Shown here: one piece after another, positions 3,211 to 10,121 of the stretch
Numbering within the stretch: position 1 is the first letter of the stretch
How the letters are laid out: every line of letters starts with the position of its first letter
Assembly (NCBI GenBank): GCA_030823965.1
Contig: JAVBYP010000290.1
Coordinates: forward strand, 1-10,121
Source: Sideroxydans sp.
GTDB taxonomy: Bacteria > Pseudomonadota > Gammaproteobacteria > Burkholderiales > Gallionellaceae
Reading direction: 5' to 3'
Length of the DNA: 10,121 nt
The notes under the pieces: model-generated
What the model saw: the letters and a program-made list of their open reading frames with translations, nothing else
What the model was told of the DNA's origin: nothing
The model's database searches: none
Translations under genes and position numbers: made by a program

Positions 3211-5810
3211 CGTTCCTTTAGCAGATCAGATTCGAACTGGCTCAGCGGAACGGGTCGTCCGAAATAATAGCCTTGGAATGTGTGGCAACCACGCTGTTCC
3301 AAGAACTCCTGTTGTTCTTTAGTCTCTACCCCTTCGGCGATGACGTTCAAGCCAAGTGCTTCTGTCATAGCGATGATGGTCTGTACGATGGCTGCATCGT
3401 TAGGGTCGATGGCGATGTCTCGCACGAAGCTCTGGTCGATCTTGATCTGATCCAGCGGCAATAACTTCAGATACTGCAGCGACGAGTAGCCCGTGCCGAA
3501 GTCGTCCATGGAGAACATGATGCCCAGCAGTTTCAATTCACGCATCTTGGCGATTGTGTCTTCCACGTTCTCCAGCACGGTGCTTTCCGTCAGTTCGAGT
3601 TTGAGATGAGAGGGCTTCGCGCCTGTCTCTACCAACACGCGACGCACTTGATCGACGAAGTCTTTCTTGCGGAATTGTTTTGCGCTCACATTCACCGCAA
3701 GCGTCAGATCGCGCGTCGCAGGGGATCTCTGCCAAAGTTTCAACTGAACACAGGCTGAATGGAACACCCACAGACCGACTGGGATGATGATGCCCGTCTC
3801 TTCAGCAAGTGGGATGAAATCTCCCGGCGAAACCATGCCACGACTCGGATGGTTCCAGCGCAACAGCACTTCGGCGCCTACTGCACGCCCATCTGCATCC
3901 ACCTGCTTCTGAAAATACAGTTGCAATTGCTGGTTGTCGATGGCTTTCCTTAGGTCATCCGCCATGGACAGTCGTTCTTCCAACTCAGCCTGCATCTTGG
4001 GATCGAAGAATCGGATCGTATTGCGCCCCGCTTGCTTGGCTTGATACATGGCCGTATCGGCATGCTGCAGCAAGGAATCGAATGTGTCGTGTGGATCATT
4101 GAACAAGACGATGCCGATACTGGGTGTGGTGCGCACCTCAAGATCATCGAATTGGTAGCGTTCACACAAGGCAGTGCGTATCTTTTCGGCCACCAGTTCA
4201 GCTTGGGTCGCAGCTTCGTTGGTGATGGTGCTCAGATTCTCTAAGATCACCACGAACTCGTCACCGCCCAATCTTGCTACGGTATCTCCATCGCGCACAC
4301 TTGCGATGAGTCGCTGCCCGACCTCGACCAATAAACGATCACCCACGGTATGACCTTTGCTGTCGTTCAGCGACTTGAAATCGTCCAGATCAAGGTAGAT
4401 GAGCGCGCCGTAATGGCGACTACGCACACTGACGGCCATCGCTTGCTGCAAACGATCTTGTAACAAGCGACGGTTGGGTAGGTCAGTGAGTGAATCGAAA
4501 TAGGCCAGCTGGTGTATCTTCATCTCCGCGTTCTTCTGTTCGGTGATGTCGTCATACATGCCCAGTATGCCGATCACTTTCCCTTCACCGTCCTGCAAGG
4601 GGACTTTAGAAGTACGTAACCATATCTGCTTGCCGTCGGGTGTGGTCTGCGGCTCTTCGAAGTTCAACTTGGATTTCTTGCCAACCATCACTTGGTGATC
4701 GTCTTCACGGTACAGCGCCGCTTGGTCTTTCCACCCCATCTGAGTATCGTCTTTGCCGACCAATTCTTCCGGTCTGTTCAATCCCGCATCATGGGCAAAG
4801 GCTGGGTTACAACCCAGATAGCGAGATTCAGTATCCTTCCAGAAGATGCGTACGGGTACCGTTTCCAGTACGGACCGCAACATGTCGTTTACCGAACGCA
4901 GTTGTTGCTCAGCGCGTTTCTGCTCGGTGAGTTCGATGAAGAAGGTGAAGGTACGCGCGCCTTGCTCGGTCTCGACCCGCTTGACAGAGACCATGAATGG
5001 GAACTGCGACCTATCCATGCGCGAACCTAAAGTCTCATAGGTATCAGGAACGGGATGGCCTTGGGCGCGCAACTGGATACGCTCGATTATCTCTGCGCGT
5101 TTCTGCGGTGCGATGAGTTCAGTGAGCGGCAGACCCTGCAATTGGGCGATCTCTGCATAGCCGAACATCGACAAGAATGCGGAGTTCCCATCGATCACGA
5201 TTCCATCGCTGGATAATGCGACCCCGATCGGACTCAGCTCGATCAATGAACGGAATTGTGACTCGACTTGCTGGAGCGACTGTTGTAACTGTCGTTGCTT
5301 CGCTCTAGCCATTTCTTCTTGTGCATCTTGCGTGCGGCACAAGGTGATGGCTTTTGCCAATTGCGTAAGTACGGGCAGCAATATCTGAGGGAGATCGAGG
5401 TTCGTATCCGGCAGGTGCATCGCCAGCAAAATGATGACGCCATCCTTACCTACAGGGAGACGCAGATAGGATCTGTAGTGACTGTGTGTGGTGCTGAGCT
5501 GGCTCAACAGTTCGGTTTGGTCCTTTTCCACACTTGAACAACCGTAGACCAATTCGCAGGGGACACTGATGTCCTTATCGATCGCCGCGATCAGATCGAA
5601 ATCCCCTACCGCCGCTTGGATGCGCACTGCTCTCTGCGCATCTGCGACCCTTTCACAAGGTGGCATATCTAGGCAGACGAAACCCGCAGAGAACGAGGTG
5701 TGATAGAGCAGGCGCTGAAGCGTACGCGTCAGCAATGGTTTGACTTTGACCTCTGCTCCTATCGTCACCGAAAGGTCATATAGGACCGGCAGTATCTCCT
5801 TGCGCTCCAT
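3207..5810 (-). CDS. Cytosolic GAF - PAS x2 - GGDEF - EAL c-di-GMP enzyme
   Basis: 867 residues with no membrane segment or signal peptide, so cytosolic. A GAF-like domain spans about 5-155 (cysteines at 46, 52, 86 and 91), followed by a short coiled coil (about 160-187), PAS domains about 187-298 and 308-428, GGDEF about 434-602 and EAL about 618-862. The cyclase motif GGDEF (515-519) and RxxD site (RDGD, 506-509) are intact. The phosphodiesterase domain carries EVL (647-649) in place of EAL, a common ExL variant, with the other expected residues in place: N707, E739/E742 in ELTES, D769-D770 in DDFGTG, K790, E826 in AEGVE and Q846. It should therefore be able both to make and to hydrolyse c-di-GMP, with the GAF/PAS inputs deciding the balance; which activity dominates cannot be read. 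The ATG at 5810 lies 6 bases after the FIST stop, with only a weak AAAGAG upstream, which suggests coupling. Codons 698-837 are almost identical to those of the MHYT paralogue (see repeat). Confidence 0.93.
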   Translation of the reverse strand: MERKEILPVLYDLSVTIGAEVKVKPLLTRTLQRLLYHTSFSAGFVCLDMPPCERVADAQRAVRIQAAVGDFDLIAAIDKDISVPCELVYGCSSVEKDQTELLSQLSTTHSHYRSYLRLPVGKDGVIILLAMHLPDTNLDLPQILLPVLTQLAKAITLCRTQDAQEEMARAKQRQLQQSLQQVESQFRSLIELSPIGVALSSDGIVIDGNSAFLSMFGYAEIAQLQGLPLTELIAPQKRAEIIERIQLRAQGHPVPDTYETLGSRMDRSQFPFMVSVKRVETEQGARTFTFFIELTEQKRAEQQLRSVNDMLRSVLETVPVRIFWKDTESRYLGCNPAFAHDAGLNRPEELVGKDDTQMGWKDQAALYREDDHQVMVGKKSKLNFEEPQTTPDGKQIWLRTSKVPLQDGEGKVIGILGMYDDITEQKNAEMKIHQLAYFDSLTDLPNRRLLQDRLQQAMAVSVRSRHYGALIYLDLDDFKSLNDSKGHTVGDRLLVEVGQRLIASVRDGDTVARLGGDEFVVILENLSTITNEAATQAELVAEKIRTALCERYQFDDLEVRTTPSIGIVLFNDPHDTFDSLLQHADTAMYQAKQAGRNTIRFFDPKMQAELEERLSMADDLRKAIDNQQLQLYFQKQVDADGRAVGAEVLLRWNHPSRGMVSPGDFIPLAEETGIIIPVGLWVFHSACVQLKLWQRSPATRDLTLAVNVSAKQFRKKDFVDQVRRVLVETGAKPSHLKLELTESTVLENVEDTIAKMRELKLLGIMFSMDDFGTGYSSLQYLKLLPLDQIKIDQSFVRDIAIDPNDAAIVQTIIAMTEALGLNVIAEGVETKEQQEFLEQRGCHTFQGYYFGRPVPLSQFESDLLKER
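3214..3219 (-). promoter_or_regulatory. Ribosome-binding site at the ATGA overlap of the EAL and DUF3365 genes
   Basis: AAAGGA on the minus strand, inside the last codons of the GAF-PAS-GGDEF-EAL gene. It is 3 bases from the ATG at 3210 and 6 bases from the ATG at 3207. The stop TGA (3209-3207) overlaps the first ATG, so translation of the two genes is probably coupled. Confidence 0.6.
3300..3719 (-). repeat. Direct repeat copy A, within the EAL domain of the GAF protein
   Basis: Pairs with copy B at 7122-7541 at a constant offset of 3822 bases and without gaps. By hand alignment about 40 of 420 bases differ, nearly all silent. The encoded 140 residues (698-837) differ at three positions (M765, I801, K831 here versus S, T, I). 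The longest perfect match is 53 bases (3631-3683). The segment covers the NVSA, ELTES, DDFGTG and AEGVE motifs. Confidence 0.9.
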
Positions 5811-6986: not shown

Positions 6987-9914
6987 CTATTGGTAGTTGA
7001 CTCGTATCCCTTGGTTGGTCGCTAATTGCGGCCCTTCATGTTTTAGCAATGCCTCGAACTCTTCGATCGGTACTGGCTTGCCGAACAGATAACCTTGGAA
7101 GGCGTGGCAACCACGCAGATCCAAGAACTCCTGTTGTTCTATGGTCTCGACACCCTCGGCGATGACGTTCAAGCCAAGGGCTTCGGTCATGGCGATGATG
7201 GTCTGCACGATGGCGGCATCGTTAGGGTCGGTGGCGATGTCGCGCACGAAGCTCTGGTCGATCTTGATCTGATCCAGCGGTAACAGCTTCAAATATTGCA
7301 GAGACGAGTAACCCGTGCCGAAGTCGTCCATAGAGAAACTGATGCCCAGCAGTTTCAGTTCACGCATCTTAGCGATGGTGTCTTCCACGTTTTCCAGCAC
7401 GGTGCTTTCCGTCAGTTCGAGCTTGAGATGAGAGGGCTTCGCGCCTGTCTCCACCAACACGCGACGCACTTGATCGACGAAGTCTTTCTTGCGGAATTGT
7501 TTTGCACTCACGTTGACGGCCAAGGTCAAGTCGCGGGTAGCGATGTCCTGATGCCACTGCTTCAGTTGTGTACAAGCAGTGCGCAAAGCCCACAAGCCCA
7601 TCTCGACGATCTGCCCTGTCTCTTCTGCCAAGGGGATGAACTGCGCAGGAGAGATCAGACCCCGTTGTGGATGCACCCAGCGCATCAACACCTCTGCCCC
7701 CAGTGCCCGACGACGGCTATCTACTTGTATCTGGTAGAACAGGCGCAATTCGTTATTTTGCAAGGCGTGATCCAACTCAGACTCCAGCTCGATACGCGCG
7801 TCGATAGCCTCTTGCATAGCGGGATCGTAAAAGCGAATGGTGTTGCGCCCCGCCTGCTTGGCTTGATACATGGCGATGTCGGCGTACTTCAACAAGGAAT
7901 CGAGATCCTCTTGATGCCCCCTGAACAGCACCACGCCGATACTCGGCGAAGTCTGATGGGCGTATTCCTGCAGGACATAACGATTACTCAAAGTGACGCG
8001 TATCTTCTCCGCCACCAATTCGGCTTGAGCCGCAGCTTCCGCCTGATTACTGCTCAAGCCCTCTAGCACGACAACGAACTCATCGCCGCCCAAACGCGCG
8101 ACTGTGTCACCTTCACGCATCGCGTCCTGTAGACGTTGGGCGACCTCGCGTAGCAACAGGTCACCCACATCATGACCTTTGGAATCGTTGAGTTTCTTGA
8201 AGTTATCCAGATCCAACAACATCAAAGCACCGTAACGTCCGCTACGCGCACTGACCGCCAAGGCTTGCAGTGCACGTTCCATCAGCAAGCGACGATTAGC
8301 TAGATGCGTGAGCGCGTCATAGAAAGCGAGTTGATGGATGTGCTGTTCTTTTTCTTTGCGTTCTGAGATGTCCAGGAAAGTGGCGACCGCACCGATGACT
8401 TTGCCTTCCTTCATGATGGGGTGTGACCAATACTCCACTGGAACAGCTACCCCATCTTTACGCCAGAACACCTCTTGGTCAGAGTTGACGGAATGATTGA
8501 TCTTGAATGCCTGATACATGATGCAATCTTGTGCTGGATAGTGCTTTCCATCGGCATGTGAATGATGGATCAGCGTATGGATATGCTTGCCTAACACCTC
8601 ATCGGCATGCTGGAAACCCAACATACTCAAGAAGGCATTGTTGACGAATGTGCAATTCCCTTCGGTATCCACCCCATACATTCCCTCTGTGATGGAGTCC
8701 ATCATGCGTTGCAGATGTTGTTTGGATTCTTCCAATGCATGTTGCGCCGCCTTACGGTCACGGATATCGCGACAAGAACCATAGACCCTGCCGTTCGGCA
8801 ATAATACGGCGTTCAATTCCATCGGTATCTTGATGCCGTCTTTGGTGACCAGTCGTATCTCGAACACATGACGCTTGCCCGTGGCGATGATCTGCTTGCC
8901 GCCGTAGCGATATCCTTCGCGCCAACCTTCCGGAACGAGCTCGAACACGGTCTTGCCATACAACTCATCGCGGTCATAGCCCAGCAGTTCGACGACGTTG
9001 TCGTTGACGTACACGATGTGACCATCCTGCTCGGTGATGAACACTGCATCTGGCGCATTCTGCAAGGTCATACGCATGCGGTCTTCGCTATCGCGTAATG
9101 CCTGGATCATGGATTCAGACACTTGCTCCGAGTGAGCGGCCAACTCGCGATGCGCCTTCTCCAGATCCGCCAATTCTTGTGCGTTCTTACGTGCCATGCG
9201 CTGATCGAACAGACTGGCAAGCAGACCACCGCCGAACCAGACCAGCACCGTCATCGTCAACATCGCAGCCATGACGCCTGGTTCGATGCGCAAAGCGTCG
9301 GTGAGGCACATACCGCCCTCGGGGATATCCATCCCCAGCATCGCGGTGTAGTGCATGGATGAGATCGCCAAGCCCATCACTGTCGCCCCCAAAACGGTAC
9401 GTGGCAAAGTGGGAAGCCCTACCCAGTCTTGCCTATACATGATGAGCAACGCACCCCAAGAAGCGACGATGGCGATGACGATCGAGAGGATGAACATCAT
9501 CGGCTCATAACTGATGGACGGCGACATCTTGAGTGCTTCCATCCCCAAGTAATGCATGGTGCTGATACCAACTCCCATGACGATGCCGCTGAATAGGATG
9601 CGCCTAGGTTCGACATGCACTTCTCGTAAGACGTGGAAGCCAAGCAATGCTGCTGCAACTGCCGGAAGTAAGGAGATCGCGGTGAGTCGTGTATCGAAAC
9701 CGATGGGGATAGGCAGATGGAAAGCCAACATGCCCACGAAATGCATAGCCCAGATGGCAACACCTAGGGTACTACCGCCCGCCCACATCCAGATCGTGGC
9801 GGTTCGCCCAGTGTTCTCGCGCATACGCTGAGCATGAGTCAACGCCGTGAACGAGCCAAAGAAGGCGATCAACACAGACAAAACGACCAGTGGGATATTC
9901 CACGTGATAGGCAC
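6987..9914 (-). CDS. Membrane MHYT - PAS x2 - GGDEF - EAL c-di-GMP enzyme
   Basis: 975 residues. The N-terminal 235 residues form about seven membrane helices with three MHYT-type repeats: MHFVGM (57-62), MHYLGM (120-125) and MHYTAM (187-192). The MHYT domain is proposed to bind metal, probably copper, through these Met/His residues near the outer face and to sense O2, CO or NO. A cytoplasmic coiled coil (about 236-275), PAS domains (about 278-393 and 397-520), GGDEF (about 526-692) and EAL (about 710-957) follow. GGDEF (609-613) and RxxD (REGD, 600-603) are intact. The EAL site reads EVL (741-743), with N801, E833/E836, D863-D864, K884, E920 and Q940 present. Both activities are therefore plausible. 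The start is GTG at 9914-9912: an in-frame TAA lies five codons upstream, and the first internal ATG (residue 31) would remove membrane helix 1. AAGGGG at 9924-9919 is the likely ribosome-binding site, slightly close (4 bases). It is the first gene of the operon. Confidence 0.94.
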   Translation of the reverse strand: MPITWNIPLVVLSVLIAFFGSFTALTHAQRMRENTGRTATIWMWAGGSTLGVAIWAMHFVGMLAFHLPIPIGFDTRLTAISLLPAVAAALLGFHVLREVHVEPRRILFSGIVMGVGISTMHYLGMEALKMSPSISYEPMMFILSIVIAIVASWGALLIMYRQDWVGLPTLPRTVLGATVMGLAISSMHYTAMLGMDIPEGGMCLTDALRIEPGVMAAMLTMTVLVWFGGGLLASLFDQRMARKNAQELADLEKAHRELAAHSEQVSESMIQALRDSEDRMRMTLQNAPDAVFITEQDGHIVYVNDNVVELLGYDRDELYGKTVFELVPEGWREGYRYGGKQIIATGKRHVFEIRLVTKDGIKIPMELNAVLLPNGRVYGSCRDIRDRKAAQHALEESKQHLQRMMDSITEGMYGVDTEGNCTFVNNAFLSMLGFQHADEVLGKHIHTLIHHSHADGKHYPAQDCIMYQAFKINHSVNSDQEVFWRKDGVAVPVEYWSHPIMKEGKVIGAVATFLDISERKEKEQHIHQLAFYDALTHLANRRLLMERALQALAVSARSGRYGALMLLDLDNFKKLNDSKGHDVGDLLLREVAQRLQDAMREGDTVARLGGDEFVVVLEGLSSNQAEAAAQAELVAEKIRVTLSNRYVLQEYAHQTSPSIGVVLFRGHQEDLDSLLKYADIAMYQAKQAGRNTIRFYDPAMQEAIDARIELESELDHALQNNELRLFYQIQVDSRRRALGAEVLMRWVHPQRGLISPAQFIPLAEETGQIVEMGLWALRTACTQLKQWHQDIATRDLTLAVNVSAKQFRKKDFVDQVRRVLVETGAKPSHLKLELTESTVLENVEDTIAKMRELKLLGISFSMDDFGTGYSSLQYLKLLPLDQIKIDQSFVRDIATDPNDAAIVQTIIAMTEALGLNVIAEGVETIEQQEFLDLRGCHAFQGYLFGKPVPIEEFEALLKHEGPQLATNQGIRVNYQ
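7122..7541 (-). repeat. Direct repeat copy B, within the EAL domain of the MHYT protein
   Basis: Partner of copy A at 3300-3719, encoding residues 792-931 of the MHYT protein, with S859, T895 and I925 as the only differences from copy A. Upstream of it (GGDEF and the start of EAL) and downstream (last roughly 30 EAL residues) the two proteins diverge clearly, so the high identity is local to this segment. Confidence 0.9.
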
Positions 9915-9918
9915 GATG

Positions 9919-9924
9919 CCCCTT
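9919..9924 (-). promoter_or_regulatory. Ribosome-binding site supporting the GTG start of the MHYT gene
   Basis: AAGGGG on the minus strand, 4 bases before GTG (9914-9912), or 6 bases if only AAGG pairs. Together with the in-frame TAA just upstream it fixes the non-ATG start. Confidence 0.6.
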
Positions 9925-9935
9925 TTTTATTGAAC

Positions 9936-9950
9936 TTAGCTTGATGCTAA
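9936..9950 (-). other. Small inverted repeat in the leader
   Basis: On the minus strand TTAGC, a five-base spacer (ATCAA), then GCTAA. It lies 12 bases before the AAGGGG ribosome-binding site of the MHYT gene. It could form a weak five-pair hairpin in the mRNA or be a small operator. There is no U-run after it suggestive of a terminator. It could equally be chance. Confidence 0.3.
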
Positions 9951-10044
9951 CCCAGTGACCAGCCGTCCTAAATCTTAAGTAAGACTGGCACTCCCCCTCT
10001 TTTCCCCTGCTTCAACTCTTTATTCTTAAATGAGCCTAACGACC

Positions 10045-10071
10045 CTATCGGCAACTTTTTCGAATCCTTTA
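10045..10071 (-). promoter_or_regulatory. Candidate sigma-28 (FliA) promoter of the operon
   Basis: Read on the minus strand, TAAA (10071-10068), then exactly 15 bases, then GCCGATAG (10052-10045). The enteric flagellar class 3 consensus is TAAA-N15-GCCGATAA, so only the last base differs. Transcription would begin near 10035-10038, giving an untranslated leader of roughly 120 bases before the GTG at 9914. The position, upstream of the first gene and in the right orientation, supports a real promoter. This would place the cluster in the late flagellar/chemotaxis regulon. I saw no equally good sigma-70 promoter in the same region. Confidence 0.72.
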
Positions 10072-10121
10072 GAAAAACATCGAGCCATACACAATCTAAC
10101 TGTAAGGGTATTTTTCAGCTT

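Follow-up and report, generated by a model that had tools for sequence, protein, structure and literature searches.

A probable FliA (sigma-28) promoter ahead of a run of sensory c-di-GMP genes in a Sideroxydans-like member of the Gallionellaceae

Genes of the locus and the site ahead of them

The window analysed here, 10,121 nt of DNA from Sideroxydans sp. (Gallionellaceae), constitutes contig C105 in full; the draft genome to which it belongs (G000 hereafter) comprises 1.95 Mb on 291 contigs and is 79% complete. Five genes, four of them complete and the fifth cut by the contig end, follow each other head to tail (Table 1), and the gaps between them amount to 15, 6, -4 and 3 nt, so that they are packed like one operon. 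GGDEF occurs in three of them (genes 1, 3 and 4), two of which (genes 1 and 3) also carry EAL; all three retain intact GGDEF and RxxD motifs, and in both EAL genes EVL stands in place of the EAL motif and DDFG is present. On the sensory side, gene 1 has the N-terminal membrane part of an MHYT sensor, with four Pfam stretches and the motifs MHFV, MHYL and MHYT, and gene 4 combines a Tll0287-like domain (residues 55-208) with a CxxCH motif (CLNCH at residue 187), as sCache_heme proteins do. The fragment of gene 5 has no Pfam match itself and is 66-68% identical to the sensor part of proteins at five other loci (L153-L157), which are about 934 residues long and of cache-like-HAMP-PAS-GGDEF-EAL architecture (domains taken from the L153 protein).

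The first-pass annotation had described five or more c-di-GMP genes serving as sensors for c-di-GMP. The wording is not supported: there are four complete genes and the cut one, only three of them show GGDEF, the FIST protein has no c-di-GMP domain in Pfam and gene 5 is seen as its sensor part. The notion of sensors for c-di-GMP is ruled out by the enzyme domains: judged from these, the products should be c-di-GMP synthases and phosphodiesterases, whose sensing parts would look at something else. The inputs look gas- or redox-related, given the MHYT domain, the NosP-like FIST protein with its adjoining GAF-fold partner, and the c-heme sCache domain.

Table 1. Features of the window and the basis on which each was assigned
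Feature	Position	Strand	Basis
-35 element TAAA of the putative sigma-28 promoter	10068..10071	-	direct reading and pattern match
-10 element GCCGATAG, 15-nt spacer to the -35	10045..10052	-	direct reading; matrix scores 19.2 and 18.4
Leader, -10 to start codon, 130 nt	9915..10044	-	
AAGGGG, ribosome-binding-site-like, ahead of GTG	9919..9924	-	direct reading
Gene 1, MHYT-PAS-PAS-GGDEF-EAL, 975 aa, GTG start	6987..9914	-	Pfam MHYT 5.8e-44, GGDEF 4.8e-46, EAL 5.6e-74
Gene 2, FIST N and FIST_C protein, 384 aa	5817..6971	-	Pfam FIST_C 2.5e-22, FIST 1.4e-13
Gene 3, GAF-fold N-terminus-PAS-PAS-GGDEF-EAL, 867 aa	3207..5810	-	Pfam EAL 9.6e-73, GGDEF 1.1e-46
Gene 4, Tll0287-like (c-heme sCache)-PAS-PAS-PAS-GGDEF, 844 aa	676..3210	-	Pfam Tll0287-like 3.4e-23
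Gene 5, sensor part, 224 aa, 3' end missing at contig end	1..672	-	relatives' sequence

Read directly, the minus strand from 10071 to 10045 is TAAAGGATTCGAAAAAGTTGCCGATAG, that is, a sigma-28-type site TAAA-N15-GCCGATAG. Both boxes and their spacing are as first annotated and agree with the FliA consensus (-35 TAAA, -10 GCCGATAA, 15 nt between) apart from the last base of the -10 element, which is G in place of the consensus A. The GTG of gene 1 at 9914 follows the -10 element after 130 nt; the earlier figure of about 120 bases suits the expected transcription start, which should lie near 10038. No Rfam match was found at E<=1 between 9880 and 10121, and the idea that the leader contains an RNA family of Rfam, for instance a c-di-GMP riboswitch, was accordingly set aside. 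Upstream of the -35 element the known DNA runs for 50 nt, up to the contig end.

FliA and its candidate sites in the genome

The genome encodes the cognate sigma factor (FliA_WhiG, 268.9 bits against a cut-off of 189.6), the absence of which the first-pass annotation had named as fatal to its proposal, together with flagellin and FlgM. In the whole-genome scan that it had also called for, TAAA-N15-GCCGATA occurs nine times exactly against once for the reversed pattern and, when up to one mismatch is allowed, 36 times (30 of which were fetched as loci) against 19 for the reversed control. The neighbours of the eight other exact sites are in every case genes of flagella, of chemotaxis or of the HD-GYP type, or one of two conserved small ORFs. 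One site lies 40 nt before the gene of a PAS-4HB_MCP receptor (aer-like MCP; L005), one at the end of flhB, 41 nt ahead of a response regulator gene of the HD-GYP type (L006, with site and distance the same in G045), one upstream of flhD (L008), one at an MCP gene (L011), one 95 nt from flgK (L012), one inside fliK and 280 nt ahead of fliL (L013; here the conservation of codons might be the explanation), and two before the small ORFs (L009, L010); a site of this kind is also found at their relatives in G045 and G015 and, for one of them, in G020. Sites with one mismatch precede flagellin, motA, an MCP, flgM and a DUF3391-HD-GYP gene, and many other one-mismatch matches fall inside genes.

A matrix of 16 positions was built from seven other sites of G000, with the window site left out; they precede the aer-like MCP, flgK, flhD, flgM, an MCP, flagellin and motA. 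On this matrix the window site scores 19.2, among the seven themselves (15.0-23.7, each left out in turn), and that value was reached by none of 5000 simulated upstream regions and none of 200 simulated windows (first-order Markov). Since the seven sites were picked with nearly the same pattern, which is a mild bias, the site was rescored with an independent matrix of 25 FliA sites from E. coli ChIP-seq (PMC4183435, as given in its Table 2). Its score of 18.4 falls between those of fliD (19.3) and yjcZ (16.9), hence within the range of sites bound in E. coli. Among 843 unrelated upstream regions, a fraction of 0.0059 attains this value, and the five highest-scoring controls (18.7) are near-identical copies of one region. 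With two mismatches allowed, the single match in the window is unremarkable (mean of 0.70 in shuffles, at least one match in 100 of 200). The first-pass assignment to sigma-28 is thus upheld by an encoded FliA, by a site that scores with the flagellar and chemotaxis promoters of its own genome and by the operon-like packing of the genes, and the site is very probably a genuine flagellar promoter.

Across the genus set of 34 genomes, exact sites number 155 in the 28 in which fliA was detected, where the control pattern gives 30, and eight in the six in which it was not, where the control gives five. Two of these six may own a missed fliA: G020, because it has flhDC-motA-like genes (recognised from translations), and G010, because it is 63% complete and contains a flagellin gene.

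Some of these sites deserve mention in their own right. The perfect site upstream of flhD, the gene of the flagellar master regulator (contig C152), suggests, as read from the sequence, a FliA feedback on flhDC. HD-GYP genes behind FliA-type sites are the response regulator after flhB (L006 and, in G045, L195) and, with one mismatch, the DUF3391 protein (L026), and therefore other c-di-GMP genes of the genome may belong to the FliA regulon. One of the small ORFs (L010:504-713, contig C262) encodes a protein of 69-73 residues without Pfam match; it has relatives in G045 (L194), G015 (L196) and G020 (L190), and a TAAAC-N14-GCCGATAC site stands 50-52 nt before the ATG in all four genomes looked at. 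Its 36 database relatives are hypothetical proteins by name, and it is probably an undescribed small protein under FliA control. A second small protein (L039:1547-1756, contig C178; 69 aa, no Pfam match), with relatives in G045 (L193) and G015 (L192), follows a TAAAGGA-N12-GCCGATAAG site by 38-52 nt to the ATG in three genomes; nearly all of its 96 database relatives are unnamed or hypothetical. The named relatives of the two small ORFs come from Sideroxydans sp.

Conservation of the site among congeners

The MHYT part of gene 1 was matched in 15 of the 34 genomes (18 matches in total), and a site scoring at least 12 on the own matrix stands before four of the 18, in G000, G015, G009 and G047. 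G015 has the exact site 145 nt before the lead gene, and when its leader is set against that of G000 the two boxes form the best kept block of an otherwise poorly kept stretch. TAAA-N15-GCCGATG is found before the lead gene of G009, G047, G022 and G012; the flgM promoter of G000 also has GCCGATG. In G022 (L156) and G012 (L158) the lead gene was not recognised as MHYT, yet the site is still ahead of it, and the N-terminus of the G022 gene reads as shortened. When one lead gene is counted per fliA-carrying genome (at least 63% identity, or the genes of G022 and G012; readable DNA), a good site is present in five of nine other congeners, or six of ten with the window. Not counted are G002, with a run of N at the place, the additional copies that G043 and G047 have, and MHYT genes of greater distance in G003, G007 and G046, before which no site was found; once these three genomes are added, the site is present in six of 13 fliA-carrying genomes, or five of 12 without the window.

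The first-pass annotation had looked to the site before orthologous MHYT genes as a check, and to its loss in close relatives that keep the operon as an argument against it; both expectations were borne out in part. Against the five congeners with a good site, G043, which is the nearest relative, carries TTAA-N15-GACGATAA in the corresponding position (129 nt), weakened by two changes (scores of 8.6 and 12.2 on the own and E. coli matrices), one of each type being carried by the E. coli ycgR and fliC promoters (PMC4183435, in extract); the place is eroded in G006 and G018, although G018 keeps fliA and the MHYT / FIST / GAF-GGDEF-EAL genes; and the site is absent before the lead gene of G049. 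G001 and G017, in both of which neither fliA nor flagellin was found, and G020 are likewise without it. The association with fliA, six of ten genomes against none of three (p 0.12), is not significant, with G020 and its flhDC and motA among the three, and the statement that the site occurs only where fliA is found was dropped, as G020 has its four exact sites and flhDC-motA-like genes with neither fliA nor flagellin detected. Conservation of the site appears real but is patchy.

A chance match devoid of function could be suspected from the four congeners of nine that have no good site and from the one exact match of the reversed pattern in this same genome. The nine exact sites against that one, the plausible FliA targets beside all eight others and the identical site in the poorly kept leader of G015 argue the opposite, as does its retention in five of nine congeners when eight of 548 unrelated regions reach a comparable score (binomial 8e-8 under independence, which congeners do not have). 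We hold pure chance to be very improbable.

The lead gene is retained in relatives that lack the site, so it can be expressed by other means, and a second promoter, lying either in the known leader or above it, might supply a base level that the FliA site only boosts. This is the arrangement of P. putida bifA, with two mapped starts of sigma-70 and sigma-28 type and a roughly twofold FliA effect, transcription being halved by deletion of fliA (PMC5300878, in extract). The contig end 50 nt above the -35 element leaves such a promoter a place outside the window, while a simple scan of 9800-10121, for one promoter type over this short stretch, gave no sigma-70-like site. Dual control of this kind is a substantial possibility, if somewhat short of even.

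A further reading is that the promoter is real and serves gene 1 only or mainly, the later genes having promoters of their own. Behind the lead gene of G015 and G043 stand different genes, at gaps of about 205 and 248 nt and without FIST, and loci that begin with FIST (L083, L085, L090, L093) have candidate sites of their own; in the window, the gaps between the five genes leave little room for internal promoters, and we regard this reading as unlikely.

We consider it probable that the site at 10071..10045 is a functional FliA promoter that drives an operon of at least five genes in Sideroxydans-like Gallionellaceae and so couples sensing to c-di-GMP in swimming cells.

The FIST-GAF pair, the proposed role and related systems

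The N-terminal domain of gene 3 (window 5241-5810, minus strand; loci L072-L142) has no Pfam match; its high-confidence model (pLDDT 94.0; alignment of 65 of 69 sequences, four near-identical ones being left out) finds its best structural matches among GAF domains. Among 80 loci fetched with the FIST protein, 65 have a next gene, and in 56 of these the same domain follows FIST, mostly fused to GGDEF-EAL in Gallionellaceae-type loci and to HisKA-HATPase-REC in the other loci scanned (L111, L133, L138). The GAF-fold domain is a likely receiver for the FIST protein. The best FIST relatives come mostly from Sideroxydans sp.; scanning viral contigs turned up a single distant match, and a sequence search of solved structures gave no relative. 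As in NosP, FIST and FIST_C form a stand-alone protein, but the adjoining gene encodes the GAF-fold-PAS-PAS-GGDEF-EAL enzyme and no histidine kinase; by analogy, the predicted FIST-GAF pair would resemble the NosP pair in its working and is not classed as NosP.

A general rule that FIST genes are controlled by FliA was rejected, for sites are enriched upstream of FIST and yet present in a small minority of loci: four of 55 against eight of 548 controls at a score of at least 12 on the own matrix (p 0.018) and five of 55 against ten of 548 on the E. coli matrix (p 0.0078), after ten of 67 loci had been dropped as near-duplicates, three of which (L079, L086, L090) have candidate sites. Before this removal the enrichment was stronger (nine of 66 against 15 of 853; operon heads, eight of 60 against four of 523) because five near-identical endosymbiont loci inflated it. 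These loci, from gammaproteobacterial tubeworm endosymbionts (L111, L112, L114, L115, L119), have TAAAGGG-N12-GTCGATAT 44 nt before FIST and, being near-identical, count as one observation; in L111, the sole one scanned, a GAF-PAS-histidine kinase gene follows FIST.

If the promoter works as proposed, completion of the hook and export of FlgM would free FliA, as in class-3 flagellar control, and FliA-RNA polymerase would transcribe an operon of at least five genes: the c-di-GMP-turnover genes 1, 3, 4 and very likely 5, plus one FIST sensor. In flagellated cells, their products would make local c-di-GMP respond to signals from the cytoplasm and the periplasm. Diatomic gases or redox state are the likeliest such signals, in view of the MHYT domain, the FIST protein with its GAF partner and the c-heme sCache domain, and the response would govern if, and at what point of an oxygen/iron gradient, a swimming cell slows down and settles. 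We infer here the transcription start, the FliA dependence, the single transcript, the signals sensed and the net direction of the c-di-GMP change. More tentatively, it is possible that iron-oxidizing Gallionellaceae have wired a battery of c-di-GMP enzymes that sense diatomic gases or redox state (through MHYT, a periplasmic c-heme sCache and a NosP-like FIST protein that would act directly on the GAF-GGDEF-EAL enzyme) into the last flagellar tier. Swimming cells alone would then be equipped to time their stop in the gradient according to O2, NO or redox state. Such a device would be a slow equivalent of aerotaxis that works through c-di-GMP, and close relatives would have acquired or lost it as promoters turned over. 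The kin of this organism, freshwater iron oxidizers, live in narrow oxygen/iron gradients, and two COGs of GGDEF/EAL type account for 43 genes in Sideroxydans ES-1 and 46 in Gallionella ES-2 (PMC3770913, in extract). A sensor battery tied to sigma-28 would link c-di-GMP to the motile state beyond single genes, and how swimming cells come to be given one particular set among dozens of c-di-GMP enzymes becomes open to test; in the FIST-GAF sensor pair, the output domain differs by lineage, being a histidine kinase or a c-di-GMP enzyme.

Single c-di-GMP genes under FliA control are already known; what would be new here is a multi-gene operon with several such sensors, and no FliA-controlled gas-sensor operon is described in the titles and abstracts listed by searches of open-access papers on FliA/sigma-28, FIST/NosP and MHYT. 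The MHYT part, with three MHYT-type motifs before PAS, GGDEF and EAL, is like that of the MHYT-GGDEF-EAL proteins NbdA, MucR and CdgB and of the MHYT regulator CoxC, in which it is associated with copper/CO (PMC11347149, in extract). Gene 4 shares a Pfam Tll0287-like domain and CxxCH on a signalling protein with the Tll0287/DUF3365 "sCache_heme" sensors, a class reported to have properties like those of NO sensors (preprint PMC12889525, in extract). NosP senses NO via heme and, in NosP-NahK-NarR of Legionella and relatives, is likewise a FIST auxiliary protein beside its partner and a c-di-GMP enzyme; those systems place a histidine kinase and a response regulator in between, whereas in the window the gene after FIST is itself the GAF-PAS-GGDEF-EAL enzyme (extracts of PMC12570481, PMC8846402 and PMC11237717).

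As regards the promoter, it is useful to look at c-di-GMP genes whose link to FliA is established. P. putida bifA, a GGDEF-EAL-type phosphodiesterase gene, is like the present operon in having a FliA promoter, but it is not a gas-sensor operon. In E. coli, yhjH (pdeH) and ycgR encode one phosphodiesterase and one effector. Their promoters read TAAA (or TTAA)-N15-(G/A)CCGATA, and without fliA their expression drops from 511 to 2 and from 104 to 0, respectively (PMC4183435, in extract). The likeness lies in the FliA-type promoter and in the link between a c-di-GMP gene and the flagellar cascade; the E. coli cases are single genes, whereas the window holds, as predicted from its sequence, a run of five with several sensor-coupled GGDEF and GGDEF-EAL enzymes.
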